From positions 744,001 to 808,000 of the forward strand of contig NC_023065.1 in NCBI RefSeq assembly GCF_000513295.1: a stretch of 64,000 nt of DNA, in the 5' to 3' direction. The notes beneath the pieces were generated by a model that was given only the letters and a program-made list of their open reading frames with translations, was not told the DNA's origin and searched no databases. The number at the start of each line of letters is the position of its first letter. The stretch's first letter is position 1. This DNA is from Magnetospirillum gryphiswaldense MSR-1 v2 (lineage in GTDB: Bacteria > Pseudomonadota > Alphaproteobacteria > Rhodospirillales > Magnetospirillaceae). Positions 19,384 through 45,679 of the stretch are shown piece after piece. Position numbers and translations under genes: made by a program.

Positions 19384-20097
19384 TTAAGGCGCGATCAGCC
19401 CTTCGGCGATGGCCTTGTGCACCGCTTGGGCGGTGGTGGCGGCGCCCAGTTTATCCCGGGCGCTGCGTAAACTGGAGGTGACGTCGGATTCCGGGCGGTG
19501 CAGCAGGCCGGATATCTCCCACAACGACCGCCCATCGGCCAGAAAGGTCAGGCATTGCCGTTCCATCGCCGACAATTCGTCGTCGGGGATTTCCACTTCC
19601 AAAAGCCGTTCGATGGCGGTGTGGTAGTAAAGCGCCAGCAGCTTCAGGCGCGGCTGCATATTGGCGAAATGCTCCATCTCGGCGCGCGAGCGGAAGGCGA
19701 AGGACATGGCGGCGATACAGCCGTTATCGCTGTGGAACGGGATGGTGAAGCCGTCGCGGATACCGTATTTGGCCGCCTCGGCGAACAGCAATTTCTGTTC
19801 CGGGCTCATGGCGCCGGGACGGTTGAGCAGGAAGCGCCAGGCAAAGGGCAGGTGGCTGCGCTGGGCCTCCAGCACCACCGGGTCGATGAACTGGTAGCGG
19901 TTGGCGAAATAATGCTCCATCCATTCGGTCGGATAGGTGGCGTCCCAATAGGGATTTTCCAGGCCCGGGCGGCTGTTGCCATAGGCGAAAAAATCCACAT
20001 TGGCCAGCTTGGCCAGCCGCCGCAAGGAATCCTGGGCCGAGGAAATGTCCTCGACCCACAGCAATTCCTCGGTCATTTCGCTGATCCAGGAATCCAT
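19384..20097 (-). CDS. Orphan LuxR-type regulator with autoinducer-binding domain
   Basis: A 237-residue protein. The N-terminal autoinducer-binding domain retains the usual pocket residues: Trp59 and Tyr63 (TEWMEHYFANRYQF), Asp72-Pro73 (IDPVV), Trp87 (LPFAW) and Gly near 112-116. The C-terminal GerE-type HTH (LSAMERQCLTFLADGRSLWE, then ISGLLHRPES) is less canonical than in the LuxR at 42 kb. No luxI lies next to it; the only synthase here is about 23 kb away. It sits just upstream of paaK-iorAB, a plausible target. A TTCCC-CTT-GGGAA dyad at 20110-20122 overlaps its translation start region. Confidence 0.88.
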   Translation of the reverse strand: MDSWISEMTEELLWVEDISSAQDSLRRLAKLANVDFFAYGNSRPGLENPYWDATYPTEWMEHYFANRYQFIDPVVLEAQRSHLPFAWRFLLNRPGAMSPEQKLLFAEAAKYGIRDGFTIPFHSDNGCIAAMSFAFRSRAEMEHFANMQPRLKLLALYYHTAIERLLEVEIPDDELSAMERQCLTFLADGRSLWEISGLLHRPESDVTSSLRSARDKLGAATTAQAVHKAIAEGLIAP

Positions 20098-40749: not shown

Positions 40750-40901
40750 ATTGTGATTTTTTCTTTTCTGACCCCAACGGGCGGTAATGATGGGGTTACG
40801 GCATAAAACAAAAGTTTGTATTTATTGCAACAAGAGGTTGCCTTTGTCGGCGAAAGTGTCGAGAATGCGGATGTGGGGCATAGCCACAGGAAATTGCACA
40901 A

Positions 40902-41387
40902 ATGATCTCTACCGCCAACAATGACGTGAAAAGTCCGGGTCGCCGCGTCTCCAGTCGTGGTCGCACCCCTTCCGGGAAACCCAACCCCATTGATGTTCAT
41001 GTGGGTGCCCGGGTCCGCTTGCGCCGTACCCTTTTGGGCATGAGCCAGGAAAAGCTGGGCGAGGCCCTGGGGTTGACCTTCCAGCAGGTGCAGAAGTATG
41101 AACGCGGCGCCAACCGCGTCGGTGCCTCGCGCTTGTTCGACCTGTCGCGTGTGCTCGACGTGCCGGTCAGCTTTTTCTTCGACGACATGTCGGAAGAGGT
41201 CGAGGCGTTGTCGCCGCGGCTGATTTCCGGCTTGGCCGAAGAACCCGCTTCGTTCGAGACCGACCCCATGACCAAGCGCGAAACCTTGGAACTGGTACGG
41301 GCCTATTACCGCATCACCGATCCGCATGTGCGCAAGCGTGTGCTGGATCTGGCCAAGGCCTTGGGGGCGGTCACCGATATCGGCTGA
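40902..41387 (+). CDS. XRE-family regulator A
   Basis: A 161-residue protein. After a basic leader (residues 1-30) the HTH is HVGARVRLRRTLLGMSQEKL, then GEALGLTFQQVQKYERGANR, a canonical Cro/CI helix-turn-helix. LSRVLDVPVSFFFDDM follows, and the C-terminal helix is RETLELVRAYYRITDPHVRK. It faces XRE regulator B, with which it shares most of this layout. This type is widespread in alphaproteobacteria, where members control metabolism, stress or motility. The lux genes lie just beyond regulator B. Confidence 0.88.
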   Translation: MISTANNDVKSPGRRVSSRGRTPSGKPNPIDVHVGARVRLRRTLLGMSQEKLGEALGLTFQQVQKYERGANRVGASRLFDLSRVLDVPVSFFFDDMSEEVEALSPRLISGLAEEPASFETDPMTKRETLELVRAYYRITDPHVRKRVLDLAKALGAVTDIG

Positions 41388-41436
41388 TGATCCAATCCTA
41401 TCCGGCGGCGGCCTCGTGCCGCCGCATGGATCGGTT

Positions 41437-41898
41437 TTATTCTGCTGACGGATTTTCCGACAGCTTTTGCGCCAGTTGGTGGACCATCTGGCGTTTTTTT
41501 TCGTCCGAAATGGCAAGATAGGCGCGGACCAGTTCCAGTGCTTCGCGCATGTCGTCGCCGACCGGGTCGCAATCGTCGAACGGCGTGCCGGGAAAGTCCG
41601 CGTCCAGTTCACGCGGCATGCCATCGAAGAAATAACCGAACGGTACGTCCAAAACGATGCTTAGGCGGTGCAGCAAGTGCGGGCCGACGCGTTGACTCCC
41701 GTTTTCCATGGCCAACAGGGTTTCCGTCGCCACAGCCATTGCTTGGGCCAGATCCTCGAGGGACAGCCCAATGGCGTTGCGCCGTGCACGGATGCGCTTG
41801 CCCAGATGGAGGTCCAACGGAGTCGGGCGAATTTCTGCGGGAATGGGGTCCGTCACGGCACACGCAAGATTGATTGGCATTCCTGCTGTGTATACCAT
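41437..41898 (-). CDS. XRE-family regulator B
   Basis: A 153-residue protein (an in-frame Met at 41880 is an alternative start). The HTH region is HLGKRIRARRNAIGLSLEDL, then AQAMAVATETLLAMENGSQR, followed by LSIVLDVPFGYFFDGM and ALELVRAYLAISDEKKRQM. The order and the VLDVPxxxFF and ALELVRAY motifs match XRE regulator A, so the two look like diverged duplicates placed tail to tail. Its recognition helix is less canonical. It is divergent from luxR with only 41 bases between starts, so it could bind and control that promoter. Confidence 0.85.
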   Translation of the reverse strand: MVYTAGMPINLACAVTDPIPAEIRPTPLDLHLGKRIRARRNAIGLSLEDLAQAMAVATETLLAMENGSQRVGPHLLHRLSIVLDVPFGYFFDGMPRELDADFPGTPFDDCDPVGDDMREALELVRAYLAISDEKKRQMVHQLAQKLSENPSAE

Positions 41899-41939
41899 AC
41901 GCGTCCAAGCTGTAAAACCAAGCCGTGGTGCGAGGTAAC

Positions 41940-42668
41940 ATGGTCGGTGACAATTTTCGCCTGGGCGACTTCATTGAACGGACGTTGCGGGCCGACACCG
42001 CGCCTGCCTTGATGAGCGAACTGAAATCCGCCTTGGTCCATTGGGGTTTTCCACACATGGCCTGCGGCGCCTTCGGCGAGCCCGAGCGCCCCTTGGACGA
42101 CATGTCGGTTCCTGCGGTGGTGGTGGATTATCCCGAGGAATGGCAGAAATATTACTTCGAGAAGAATTACGTTACTATTGATCCAGTGATTACTCGGGCT
42201 TGCCAAGCCTATGTTCCCTATCGCTGGGACCAATTGCGTGATCTGACCAACCCGCAAAAGCGTATGTTCAAGGAGGCGACCGAGGCCGGCTTGCGGCACG
42301 GTATCACCGTGCCGGTACACGGTCCCAACGGCAGCATTTTCGTTGCCAGTGTCGCCAGCCCCCATACCGATATCGACCATCTGCGCAGCCTGTCGGTGGC
42401 TAATGTTTTGGTAACCCAGGTTTATTCGGTGCTGGTGGGAATGCGGCATCCGGGGGCCCCAAGTGCCCCAGTGTCGCTGACGGCGCGTGAACGCGAGTGC
42501 CTGATCTGGAGCGCGCGCGGAAAATCGTCGTGGGATATCGGGGTGATCTTGAACATTTCGGACAACACGGTGAATTTTCATCTCAAGAACGCCATGGGGA
42601 AATTAAAGGCTTCGACCCGCGTCTTGGCCATTGTCAAAGCTATTCGCATGGGTTTGATCGTTCCGTAA
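41940..42668 (+). CDS. luxR: LuxR-family quorum-sensing regulator
   Basis: ATG 41940 with GAGGT upstream gives 242 residues. The autoinducer pocket residues are present: Trp68 and Tyr72 (PEEWQKYYFEKNYV), Asp81-Pro82 (IDPVI), Trp96 (VPYRWDQL) and Gly121 (GLRHGITV). The HTH is LTARERECLIWSARGKSSWD, then IGVILNISDNTVNFHLKNA. It binds an acyl-homoserine lactone and the lux boxes. The lux-box-like dyad begins directly after its stop codon, and luxI follows 80 bases later. Confidence 0.93.
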   Translation: MVGDNFRLGDFIERTLRADTAPALMSELKSALVHWGFPHMACGAFGEPERPLDDMSVPAVVVDYPEEWQKYYFEKNYVTIDPVITRACQAYVPYRWDQLRDLTNPQKRMFKEATEAGLRHGITVPVHGPNGSIFVASVASPHTDIDHLRSLSVANVLVTQVYSVLVGMRHPGAPSAPVSLTARERECLIWSARGKSSWDIGVILNISDNTVNFHLKNAMGKLKASTRVLAIVKAIRMGLIVP

Positions 42669-42686
42669 CCTCTCAACCTTGGCAGG
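42669..42686 (+). promoter_or_regulatory. Candidate lux box upstream of luxI
   Basis: CCTCTCAACCTTGGCAGG: half-sites CCTCTCAA and TTGGCAGG, matching at six of eight symmetric positions, with a two-base centre. The centre is about 71 bases before the luxI ATG. It shares 12 of 18 bases with the dyad at 43859-43876. The right half is close to the classical lux-box half TGGCAGG. Confidence 0.6.
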
Positions 42687-42748
42687 ATGTAATAATACTC
42701 AATTCGCCTTCTTCTAGCGCTTAGAGATTTTAGCGCCAGGAGGGGTTG

Positions 42749-43372
42749 ATGATTGAGGTTGTAAATTGGGGCAACTCACACGCATTCGGCGACTCACTTG
42801 CCGCTCACCATAGGCTGCGCCACAAATGCTTTGTTGAGCGCAATGGTTGGTCCGTTCCCAGCCATGAGGGCATGGAATACGATCAGTTCGATACGCCGGC
42901 CGCCACCTATCTGATCCATCGTCACGGCAACGGCCCGGTTCAGGGCGTTGCCCGTCTGATCCCCACCACCCGCCCTTACATGCTGAAGGAATTGTGGCCC
43001 GATCTGCTGGGCGGCGACGTCCCGGTCAGTACCCAGGTGTGGGAAGCCACCCGCTTCGGCATCGACGACGATCTGGAACCGGCGGTCAAGCGCCGGGTGG
43101 CGGCGGAAATCGTGCTGGGCTGTCTGGAGTTTGGCATGTCCATGGGCATCAACCGCTATCTGGTGTTGATGCCGCACCTGATCATCCGTCGTACCATCGG
43201 CGGTGCCGGCTGCAATTTCCGCTTTCTCGGCGAAACCCGCGCCCTGGCCGATTATCCGGTAGCGGCGGCGGAAATCGAGGTCAACGCCCAGGCCTTGGCG
43301 TCGGCTCGGGCCAAGATCGGCTTTCATGGTTCGCTGCTGCGTCGGCACGACCAAGCGGCGGTGGCGGCGTGA
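42749..43372 (+). CDS. luxI: LuxI-family acyl-homoserine-lactone synthase
   Basis: ATG 42749 follows AGGAGG at five bases; 207 residues. The invariant residues are present: Arg24 and Phe28 (HRLRHKCFVERNGW with Trp34), Asp45 and Asp48 (EYDQFDTP), Arg69 (GVARLIPT), Glu99 and Arg102 (VWEATRFG). The FVERNGW and DQFDTPAATYL wording resembles the alphaproteobacterial branch that includes BjaI/RpaI-type synthases, some of which use acyl- or aryl-CoA rather than acyl-ACP. Placement in that branch is inference. The stop overlaps a small downstream gene. Confidence 0.93.
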   Translation: MIEVVNWGNSHAFGDSLAAHHRLRHKCFVERNGWSVPSHEGMEYDQFDTPAATYLIHRHGNGPVQGVARLIPTTRPYMLKELWPDLLGGDVPVSTQVWEATRFGIDDDLEPAVKRRVAAEIVLGCLEFGMSMGINRYLVLMPHLIIRRTIGGAGCNFRFLGETRALADYPVAAAEIEVNAQALASARAKIGFHGSLLRRHDQAAVAA

Positions 43373-43572
43373 TGGGCGCGCTGCCTTTCCCCCGTCATTA
43401 TCCTGGCGCCACCCTGCCGCTGGCCGGTGACGCCGCCATCATCGGCAAGGCGTTGGAAGCCTTGGCCAGCCATGCCCGCGATGCCGGTCTGGGCGAGTTG
43501 GCCCAGTCCATCCTGGAACTGGGTCTGGAAGCGGCCGAGATTGCGCGGCATACCGGCAAGCTCAGTCATTGA
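43372..43572 (+). CDS. Small helical protein coupled to luxI (66 residues)
   Basis: ATG 43372 overlaps the luxI TGA (ATGA). The product has a Pro/Gly-rich leader (PFPRHYPGATLPLAGD), then an amphipathic helical region GKALEALASHARDAGLGELA, then QSILELGLEAAEIARH. This helical part aligns with the 52-residue protein encoded on the other strand at 43640-43798: about 9 identities in 20 positions from LEAL/LDYL onward, then a shared L-x-A-A-E. No known family is recognised. Coupling to luxI suggests a role in the quorum-sensing circuit. Confidence 0.65.
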   Translation: MGALPFPRHYPGATLPLAGDAAIIGKALEALASHARDAGLGELAQSILELGLEAAEIARHTGKLSH

Positions 43573-43581
43573 ACGCGAAAA

Positions 43582-43606
43582 TCCCGCCCGGCAAGGCCGG
43601 GCGGGA
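43582..43606 (-). terminator. Hairpin terminator between the two small genes
   Basis: An eleven-base perfect stem, TCCCGCCCGGC-AAG-GCCGGGCGGGA, followed on the minus strand by ATTTTCGC. It fits termination of the minus-strand small gene, and the hairpin may also stop luxI-operon transcription from the other side. Confidence 0.75.
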
Positions 43607-43639
43607 CGACGCCGATGGCGGGGCCGTTTATTTTATTGC

Positions 43640-43798
43640 TTAGTGCACGGTTTCGCTGGCGTCTTCGGCGGCTAGGCAGGCAACCTCGATCAACTCGGCC
43701 ACTTCGCGCAAATCCGATTCCCGCGCTTCACGGGCCAGATAATCCAGGCAATGCTTGATCGCCTTGGCGTTTTCACTGCGGTTCTTGGCTTCGTTCAT
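43640..43798 (-). CDS. Small helical protein (52 residues), related to the luxI-coupled protein
   Basis: ATG 43798 has a near-perfect GGAGGAA ribosome-binding site seven bases upstream; a longer frame to 43840 is not needed. The product MNEAKNRSENAKAIKHCLDY continues LAREARESDLREVAELIEVA and ends in an acidic tail. It is predicted to be fully helical and shares the LAxxARxxxLxEhAxxI pattern with the 66-residue protein. A lux-box-like dyad lies about 70 bases upstream, the same distance as the luxI box from luxI. Function is unknown; regulator or antiactivator roles are possible. Confidence 0.7.
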   Translation of the reverse strand: MNEAKNRSENAKAIKHCLDYLAREARESDLREVAELIEVACLAAEDASETVH

Positions 43799-43858
43799 CT
43801 TGAATTCCTCCGTGGCAAGGCAACGCTGAAGCCTAGGCATTCGCCCGCCCTTTTGGTA

Positions 43859-43876
43859 CCTACCAGACTTGGTGGG
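43859..43876. promoter_or_regulatory. Second lux-box-like dyad
   Basis: CCTACCAGACTTGGTGGG: CCTACCA and TGGTGGG are inverted repeats at six of seven positions around GACT. It lies in the divergent gap between the 52-residue gene (centre about 70 bases from its ATG) and the radical SAM gene (about 102 bases). It shares CCT..CA..CTTGG..GG with the luxI box. Confidence 0.55.
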
Positions 43877-43969
43877 GAAAAACCCTACAAGGGCAGTTGT
43901 TGAGATGGATTCTAGATGCGGCTATCGTGCCGGTTATCTAGTCAACGGCAGCACCGAAGCGGGGTTTTG

Positions 43970-45679
43970 ATGAACCGGCAGGCCAATATCGCCATCTGTC
44001 CGTTTTCCTTTCCGGCCAGTCTGCCGTTGGGGCCGTCCATCATCAAGGCCTTCGCCGAGGAACATTCCGATTTCAAGGTTACCTGCATCGACTTGAATGC
44101 CGAATGGTACAACACTTTCGTCGATGCGGCCCTGGCCGGCAAAAGCTTTGTCCAGTTCTCCCCCGAGGCCAAGGCGGATTTCGCCAAGGCGGCGAAAATG
44201 TTCCGCGACGGCGGCGACGTGTTCTGGGACGAGGCGGAATACCAGCGGCTGTCGCGCTTTTTCGAAAGCACCATCCGCAAGGTGGAAAACGTCTTCCTCG
44301 ACGGCTTCGAGCGCGCCTGCGCCCATGGCGAATACGTGCCGCCGATCAAGGCCTATGCCGAGCACGCTGCCCGCAAGCTGATCGCCAACGATCCGTCGGT
44401 GGTCGGCTTTTCCCTGATGTTCCGCGAACAATACATGCCGTCGGTGCTGATCGCCTATTACGTCAAGGCGTTGAAACCCGACGTCAAGATCGTCTTCGGC
44501 GGCGGCTATACCAGCGCCTGCCATCCGTCCATCTTGTTCGCCAATCCGTTCATCGACTTCGTTGTCTTCAATGAAGGCGAGGGCGGTTTCCATGCCTTGC
44601 TGATGGCCTTGGACGAGGGTAAGACCAGCTTTGACGGCATCGCCAACCTGATCTGGCGTAACCCCGAGGCGGAAGACGGCTGGGTCAAGAACGCCAAATC
44701 GCCGTCGGTGGATTTCAAGACCCAGCCTTACCCGGATTTCTCCGATTACAAGCTGGGGGCCTATTTCCAGCCCGAGCCAGTGTTCCCGATCATGAGTTCC
44801 AAGGGCTGTGCCTGGGATAAGTGCACGTTTTGCACCCATCATCGCTCTTATTCGGGGGCGCATCGCGCCGCTGCCACCGACCGGGTGGTGGGCGAGATCG
44901 AGCACATGGTCAACACCTATGGAGTCAAGCGTTTCGCCTTCGTCGACGAGATGATTTCGCCCGGTCGCTTCCGCCGCATCTCCGAGGATCTGATCGAAAA
45001 GAATATCGACATCACCTGGTACGCCCTGGCCAAGCCCGATCTGATCTATACCGAGGAAATCCTGGAGATCATGCACAAGGGAGGCTGCCGCTATCTTCTG
45101 TGGGGGGTGGAATCGGCCAATCAGCGCATCATCGACCTGATGGACAAAGGCACCACCCCTGACGGTGTCGCCGAGGTGCTGGCCCGCTCGACCCGTGCCG
45201 GTATCAGGAACCACCTGTTCATCATCGTCGGCTTCCCCTCGGAAACCGAGGCGGAATACCTGGAAACCATGGAATTCCTGTACCAGAACCGCGACAACGT
45301 CCACCGTATCCTGGCCTGCGGCTTTTCCCTCGACAACGGTTCGATCATTTTCAAGGAGCCGGAACGCTTCGGCATTTCGCGCATCTGGGACGTCTCCAAC
45401 ATCGCCACAATCAGTGTCAAATACGATGTCGAGCGTGGGGTCGGCTGCTTTGACACGGAAAAGCACGCCTTGTTCTGGAAGAACAATTTCTTCGACCATT
45501 TCGAGGCCTTCAAGGGCGATCTGGGGCTGTTCCGCAATCACGCCCTGCTGCATTATACCTATCCAGACCGGATCAAGCCGGTGGGGGGACGACGGGTGCC
45601 CAACCCGCGCAAGCTGAAACCGCCGCCTTATCAGGCCGGGCCGGGGGGCAAGTCGGACCGCAAGGTGCTGACCAAATAG
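43970..45679 (+). CDS. B12-binding-type radical SAM protein
   Basis: ATG 43970 gives 569 residues; a longer frame to 43916 lacks support. The N-terminal 230 residues resemble a cobalamin-binding Rossmann domain (VVGFSLMFREQYMPSVLIAY; VFGGGYTSA; NEGEGGFHALL) but without the usual DxHxxG, so base-on B12 binding is doubtful. The radical SAM core has SKGCAWDKCTFCTHHRSYSG with the three cluster cysteines, FVDEMISPGRF and LLWGVESANQR. It probably performs a methylation or rearrangement on a specialised metabolite. It may be quorum-regulated from the dyad upstream. Confidence 0.83.
   Translation: MNRQANIAICPFSFPASLPLGPSIIKAFAEEHSDFKVTCIDLNAEWYNTFVDAALAGKSFVQFSPEAKADFAKAAKMFRDGGDVFWDEAEYQRLSRFFESTIRKVENVFLDGFERACAHGEYVPPIKAYAEHAARKLIANDPSVVGFSLMFREQYMPSVLIAYYVKALKPDVKIVFGGGYTSACHPSILFANPFIDFVVFNEGEGGFHALLMALDEGKTSFDGIANLIWRNPEAEDGWVKNAKSPSVDFKTQPYPDFSDYKLGAYFQPEPVFPIMSSKGCAWDKCTFCTHHRSYSGAHRAAATDRVVGEIEHMVNTYGVKRFAFVDEMISPGRFRRISEDLIEKNIDITWYALAKPDLIYTEEILEIMHKGGCRYLLWGVESANQRIIDLMDKGTTPDGVAEVLARSTRAGIRNHLFIIVGFPSETEAEYLETMEFLYQNRDNVHRILACGFSLDNGSIIFKEPERFGISRIWDVSNIATISVKYDVERGVGCFDTEKHALFWKNNFFDHFEAFKGDLGLFRNHALLHYTYPDRIKPVGGRRVPNPRKLKPPPYQAGPGGKSDRKVLTK

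Follow-up and report, generated by a model that had tools for sequence, protein, structure and literature searches.

The window analysed here, a 64-kb stretch of the Magnetospirillum gryphiswaldense MSR-1 genome that is part of a single contig of 4,365,796 b, carries a quorum-sensing island. The genes of an acyl-homoserine lactone (AHL) receptor (luxR) and synthase (luxI) are accompanied there by two short genes coding proteins of 66 and 52 amino acids (aa), by two regulator genes of the XRE type, named XRE-A and XRE-B, and by a gene for a B12-binding radical SAM (S-adenosylmethionine) enzyme (coordinates in Table 1). The island is probably a cassette in which LuxR induces small antirepressors that act on PraR-type repressors encoded alongside them. 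The small proteins would best be read as a wider, cassette-encoded variant of the CinS–PraR pair, in which the product of cinS, a gene transcribed together with cinI, inactivates the repressor PraR (PMC4149787; reviewed in PMC5977203). CinS-like antirepression is preferred because the small genes recur beside luxI and beside PraR-like genes, because XRE-A is by sequence a PraR with a putative operator, and because there are two precedents, CinS and the 59-aa protein MmaP, which is encoded directly downstream of mmaI in Methylobacterium fujisawaense and binds PraR (PMC10790750).

Both short open reading frames (ORFs) evolve as coding sequences. In the six genomes that have the locus, the ratio of nonsynonymous to synonymous substitution rates (dN/dS) is 0.125 for the 52-aa gene and 0.20 for the 66-aa gene (measured over its final 51 codons); in shifted frames the signal vanishes for both. 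The initiation codon of the 66-aa gene overlaps the luxI termination codon by one base (TGATG), an arrangement kept in all six genomes. A preliminary description of this DNA had listed luxR, luxI and the two short genes, which Pfam scores, ORFs and coding selection bear out, but had given the overlap as ATGA. It had also taken the two small proteins for diverged copies, an opinion that holds: when the sequences are read against each other the helical parts are identical at ~9 of 20 positions, and iterated profiles seeded with either protein converge on nearly identical member sets. On this sequence evidence the two proteins are homologous, with a kinship that is firmer via intermediates than by direct identity. 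At E ≤ 1e-3 the real frames gave 75 and 73 matches, their reversed versions 0 and 0, and shuffled ones 1 and 1. When 25 random frames were iterated likewise, 22 ended with one or two members and the others with 5, 9 and 70; these three larger sets have no overlap with the small family, and the 70-member set is, by position, antisense to luxR. The 66-aa protein was found with E 9e-8 (by the profile seeded with that protein itself) and 2e-6 (in the whole-genome profile search), and the 52-aa protein with E 7e-19 and 8e-17 in two profile searches. A single-sequence prediction folds the 52-aa protein into a two-helix hairpin (residues 3–27 and 31–50; mean predicted local distance difference test score (pLDDT) 89.6).

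Sequence searches place no Pfam or NCBIfam family over the small proteins. None of 66 aligned members matches NCBIfam at E ≤ 0.01, and a Pfam match, below the cut-off of its model, is found in one of the 66. Three candidate relationships were attributed to chance: HTH_IclR for the 66-aa protein (Pfam E 0.0076, under the cut-off, in one of the 66 members), 14 weak matches of the family profile to Protein Data Bank (PDB) sequences, with sulerythrin as the best (E 0.031), and a single weak tblastn match of the 52-aa protein on plasmids, which lies inside traA of a Sphingomonas plasmid. Searches of the open-access literature on luxI, Rhodospirillum and small proteins and on Magnetospirillum and AHL found no report of this locus, and the wider family appears to be unpublished, to the extent that the open-access literature searched and passages from it can show.

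Relatives of each small protein were found in a sample of 149 related genomes, which holds 69 luxI matches, or 67 once two weak partial ones in one genome (G063) are dropped. A family member lies at most 1.5 kb downstream of 44 of these 67 genes (local search, E ≤ 0.02) and, for 42 of the 44, within 220 b and on the same strand; two or more members accompany 14 luxI genes (the facing luxI pair of G010 is counted twice). The whole-genome profile search retrieved 94 members at E ≤ 1e-5 from 61 of the 149 genomes. Of these members 50 immediately follow luxI, 8 more are within 6 kb of it and 36 are elsewhere, a placement that is partly circular because the profile was built from luxI-adjacent loci. 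A second sample covered 387 genomes of the class, nearly all of them outside the profile, which was made from the closer relatives only. Its counts are lower bounds because only 18 candidates were scored in many genomes. It gave at least 23 matches at E ≤ 1e-5, the own genome and one genome of the same family being excluded. At least 10 of them adjoin luxI (nine directly downstream, one by a luxI fragment at a contig end), five of these ten coming from one family (f62), and three weaker matches (G227, G310 and G157) are likewise directly downstream of luxI. As luxI is present in 61 of the 387 genomes, most luxI genes of this sample have no detectable member. The linkage between luxI and the small gene is common, not universal.

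The XRE genes that flank luxR are both PraR-like and a putative operator of PraR type precedes XRE-A, two points that go beyond the preliminary description. XRE-A is 83% identical to a paralogue at position 3211484 of its own genome, located between lnt (Pfam) and a metK-like frame (judged by eye); further full-length relatives with 74 and 60% identity make three paralogues in all. The best match in Rhizobium johnstonii 3841, 56% identical over residues 25–159, is also found between lnt and metK, and metK downstream is the reported neighbourhood of PraR (PMC10790750). By these comparisons XRE-A is a member of the PraR family. XRE-B is 41% identical to XRE-A. Among the 45 PraR-like places in 81 loci fetched with wide flanks, only six are nearer to XRE-B than to XRE-A, all of them in this cassette. 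The PraR site defined by systematic evolution of ligands by exponential enrichment (SELEX) is CAAC-N5-GTTG (PMC5527310), and TTGCAA is present in PraR-bound promoters of R. leguminosarum (PMC4149787). The segment TTGCAACAAGAGGTTG, 61 b upstream of XRE-A, contains both. It holds the sole perfect CAAC-N5-GTTG match of the window, where 0.83 would be expected by chance. Eighteen perfect sites occur across the 799 kb of the 81 wide loci, and ten of them, in ten loci, sit 57–77 b upstream of an XRE-A-like gene; six of these loci are copies of this cassette and four (one each in G026, G010, G009 and G002) have different surroundings. Binding of XRE-A to the putative operator is predicted from these sequences.

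Linkage of the small genes to PraR-like genes extends, within the order, beyond the cassette. A PraR-like XRE gene lies within 3 kb of 25 of the 67 luxI genes. Of 15 fetched loci with a small gene and no luxI (part of the 36 such copies; two of the loci, from genus g7, are one arrangement), 10 contain one as well. The estimated expectation is ~1% of random places, since genomes of the relatives set carry 0 to 13 PraR-like genes.

Two lux-box-like dyads, CCTCTCAACCTTGGCAGG (dyad 1) and CCTACCAGACTTGGTGGG (dyad 2), agree at 12 of 18 positions. Among the five relatives with the locus at most one base differs in dyad 1 and at most two in dyad 2, in spacers that have diverged. Dyad 2 keeps a near-constant spacing to the 52-aa start in the six genomes; its distance to the radical-SAM gene is ~100 b longer in one of them (G005). 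A pattern combining the dyads is found upstream of luxI with 0–1 mismatches of 13 in the six cassette genomes, as it must be. The pattern being drawn from the two dyads themselves, the only independent match is that of G060, a genome of another family, with no mismatch at the same distance upstream of luxI (equalled by 0 of 40 shuffles). Upstream of the remaining luxI genes no site comes nearer than two mismatches of 13; four are typical of the other loci shown, a level that shuffled sequences reach just as well. At the G026 copy of the 52-aa gene a candidate dyad fits with two mismatches. From the dyads we infer that LuxR and AHL may control both transcription units.

The cassette could then operate as follows. 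At low cell density XRE-A, perhaps also XRE-B, would repress its own gene via CAAC-N5-GTTG, together with other genes. As AHL builds up, LuxR–AHL would bind dyads 1 and 2, activating luxI and its coupled 66-aa gene from the former and, separately, the 52-aa gene from the latter. The helical-hairpin proteins are predicted to bind physically XRE-A, XRE-B and possibly the PraR paralogues encoded elsewhere in the genome, and so to relieve repression. A more ambitious version of this proposal, possible rather than probable in our view, makes the small proteins an undescribed two-helix antirepressor superfamily that would be the standard companion of alphaproteobacterial luxI. It would be packaged here with its own PraR paralogues and operator as a self-contained "sense, then derepress" cassette, in which two differently promoted antirepressors would silence XRE-A and XRE-B. 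The luxI-free copies beside PraR-like genes would then be signal-independent versions.

Several observations weigh against antirepression of PraR-type proteins. No member is detectable beside 23 of the 67 luxI genes of the relatives. Four PraR genes have no perfect site close upstream: the lnt-linked one of this genome, that of strain 3841 and two further paralogues (loci L115, L116, L117 and L294). In the intergenic stretches that precede luxR, luxI and the 52-aa and radical-SAM genes there is no PraR site within one mismatch, so that XRE-A is the only candidate target of the repression. No PraR-like gene was found at E ≤ 1e-4 in 30 loci of the class search with flanks of 1.5 kb or less; the window's own locus is among these 30 because its XRE genes lie beyond the flank. 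SinI of Bacillus subtilis mimics the C-terminal hairpin of its target SinR; a comparable mimicry of the PraR C-terminal hairpin by the small family was considered and rejected, as the profile comparison gave no similarity. The comparison with CinS itself was made with a 67-aa protein encoded beside luxI in R. johnstonii 3841, retrieved via an R. leguminosarum plasmid copy. It is taken as CinS because strain, size (67 residues for CinS; PMC3356288) and position fit, no record so naming it. It is also predicted to form a hairpin (residues 2–34 and 37–66; mean pLDDT 85.8). Alignment of the family to this protein by hhalign gave P 0.036 and a probability of 1.4%, and, after the family was enlarged, P 0.0056 and 6.5%; 2 of 150 column-shuffled controls did equally well. 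Homology to CinS is only suggestive. In favour of the antirepressor proposal are the hairpins predicted for both the 52-aa and the CinS-like protein, whose turns the weak alignment superposes.

Other functions were weighed for the small proteins. TraM, RsaM and RsaL are small modulators of quorum sensing with genes near luxR/luxI, and TraM, which is helical, binds TraR as an antiactivator. The preliminary description had seen in the 66- and 52-aa proteins a new class of LuxR modulators of this kind. Binding to LuxR, with quorum sensing delayed or damped as a result, is an unlikely option, which would agree with the position of their genes next to luxR–luxI, with the conserved lux-box-like dyads upstream and with the hairpin predicted for the 52-aa protein. 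Against it, a PraR-like gene adjoins 10 of the 15 fetched luxI-free copies, and a LuxR gene is found in only one of seven luxI-free loci compared with the LuxR of the window. Furthermore, both proteins encoded directly after luxI that have been studied in this class, CinS and MmaP, bind PraR according to the passages cited above. Genomic context favours a CinS/MmaP type of protein acting on an XRE regulator. The preliminary description is supported by the recurrence beside luxI, which it had proposed as a check, and by the conservation of the upstream dyads, whose agreement it had counted correctly; its new modulator class is not supported.

Less likely still is a division of roles within the antirepressor proposal, with the 66-aa protein matched to XRE-B and the 52-aa protein to XRE-A as two insulated pairs. 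Among the 81 loci, XRE-B-type genes are confined to six cassettes, each of which also carries the 66-aa gene coupled to luxI. In genome G026 a copy of the 52-aa gene and a gene like XRE-A occur together; the 15 kb fetched contain no XRE-B, and a 66-aa match is absent from the whole genome. However, co-inheritance within one clade is weak evidence, and in two loci of genus g7 homologues of the 66-aa protein are near an XRE protein ~79% identical to XRE-A, with no XRE-B.

The radical-SAM gene may be an output of the cassette. Its orthologue (88–98% identical) is present in 6 of the 149 genomes, each time within this cassette; homologues at 35–39% identity occur in five other genomes, of which the four with luxI have it on another contig. 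The nearest NCBIfam model is TIGR03975, a C-methyltransferase of ribosomally synthesized and post-translationally modified peptides (RiPPs), reached with 166 bits for a cut-off of 282. This similarity and the adjacency of the genes could suggest that the enzyme modifies the small proteins as RiPP-like substrates, an idea of very low probability: the score is far under the cut-off, the small sequences read as plain amphipathic helices with no evident core peptide, and the distribution of the enzyme orthologue (6 of 149 genomes) against that of the small family (61 of 149) is the ground for rejecting a RiPP precursor. Dyad 2 has a near-fixed spacing to the 52-aa gene and not to the radical-SAM gene, and nothing ties it to the latter over the former. 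Between dyad 2 and the radical-SAM gene a block CAGTTGTTGAGATGGATT (window 43894–43911) is near-identical in the six genomes; it contains no PraR site within one mismatch. GC-rich DNA yields short ORFs and weak dyads by chance, but that the two small ORFs have no kinship and the dyads are accidental palindromes is hardly credible given purifying selection, recurrence and dyad conservation.

Table 1. Features of the quorum-sensing island (window positions).
Feature	Position	Strand	Basis or remark
PraR-type operator CAACAAGAGGTTG (CAAC-N5-GTTG), putative	40828..40840		61 b upstream of XRE-A
XRE-A, PraR-type Cro/C1 helix-turn-helix (HTH) regulator, 161 aa	40902..41387	+	HTH_3 7.3e-13
XRE-B, diverged PraR-like HTH regulator, 153 aa	41437..41898	-	HTH_3 7.1e-8
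luxR, AHL receptor/activator	41940..42668	+	Autoind_bind 3.3e-29, GerE 6.5e-18
Dyad 1 (lux-box-like; precedes luxI and the 66-aa gene)	42669..42686		kept in 6/6 genomes
luxI, AHL synthase	42749..43372	+	Autoind_synth 1.5e-23
66-aa small helical protein, candidate antirepressor	43372..43572	+	start overlaps luxI stop (TGATG)
52-aa small helical protein, same family, candidate antirepressor	43640..43798	-	family profile, coding selection
Dyad 2 (lux-box-like; lies between the 52-aa and radical-SAM genes)	43859..43876		kept in 6/6 genomes
B12-binding radical SAM enzyme, possible output gene	43970..45679	+	Radical_SAM 1.2e-15, B12-binding 5.5e-12

The luxR and luxI domain scores exceed the Pfam cut-offs, and an alternative in-frame GTG start of luxR is possible at 41925. 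The 52-aa gene is near luxI on the opposite strand and, unlike the 66-aa gene, has no downstream overlap with it. A second gene with an AHL-binding LuxR domain is found in the window (19615–20040, minus strand, locus L001; E 1.6e-37) and a third at position 4116000 of the same contig; the genome yielded one luxI only. Outside the window, a small-family gene (L107:3604–3726, minus strand) immediately precedes a co-oriented PraR-like gene and separates it from luxR, in a locus with another small-family copy after luxI. In genus g7, 66-aa homologues are encoded ~2.3 kb from a PraR-like gene (L111:4804–4929, L112:4772–4903 and other genomes), and no luxI was found in several of the g7 genomes that have such homologues. 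Other short ORFs directly follow luxI in distant genomes (L220, L243, L240, L216 and L228), where the reach of the profile is nil or weak; they are possibly further CinS-like lineages. A luxR–luxI–cinS-like set is carried by the R. leguminosarum plasmid pSK03 (L251:3501–3704, NZ_CP022567.1), whereas strain 3841 has its set on the chromosome (record NC_008380).

Regulation in the textbook AHL system goes no further than LuxR acting at promoters. CinS and MmaP add a second arm, a quorum-sensing-induced small protein that binds a PraR-type regulator, each as a single case. If the antirepressor proposal is true this arm would be general, such a gene, lacking a Pfam or NCBIfam family, being carried by 44 of 67 luxI genes of the relatives, and in many bacteria cell density would govern PraR-type regulons (attachment, swarming or R-body genes in the species studied). 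In passages of a 2023 paper on Caulobacter PraR relatives, BLAST found no CinS and undiscovered antirepressors were proposed (PMC10688885); the family profile would be a suited tool for finding them.

Compared with known systems, the small proteins differ from TraM, RsaM and RsaL in that none of the 66 members matches Pfam or NCBIfam families of that kind at E ≤ 0.01 and in a context that favours an XRE partner. BCAM1871 of Burkholderia cenocepacia is similarly encoded downstream of, and cotranscribed with, a luxI-type gene (cepI), but has 254 residues and is reported to lack homology to CinS, in a species reported to have no CinS homologue (PMC3356288). SinI–SinR offers the likeness of a small antirepressor of an XRE-type repressor (PMC4149787, PMC10688885), with no link to AHL signalling. 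MmaP, compared by its description, shares the position directly downstream of a luxI-type gene, while praR of M. fujisawaense is described at a separate locus. The closest parallel is with CinS–PraR of R. leguminosarum and R. johnstonii 3841: the small gene overlaps the luxI-type gene (by 4 bases in the R. leguminosarum plasmid copy), a hairpin is predicted for the small protein, and PraR-family regulators are present as possible partners (XRE-A, its three full-length paralogues and XRE-B). In strain 3841 cinS (~3.55 Mb) and praR (~0.42 Mb) are far apart on the chromosome, whereas in M. gryphiswaldense the PraR-type genes are inside the cassette, and there are two small proteins, the second with a dyad of its own.

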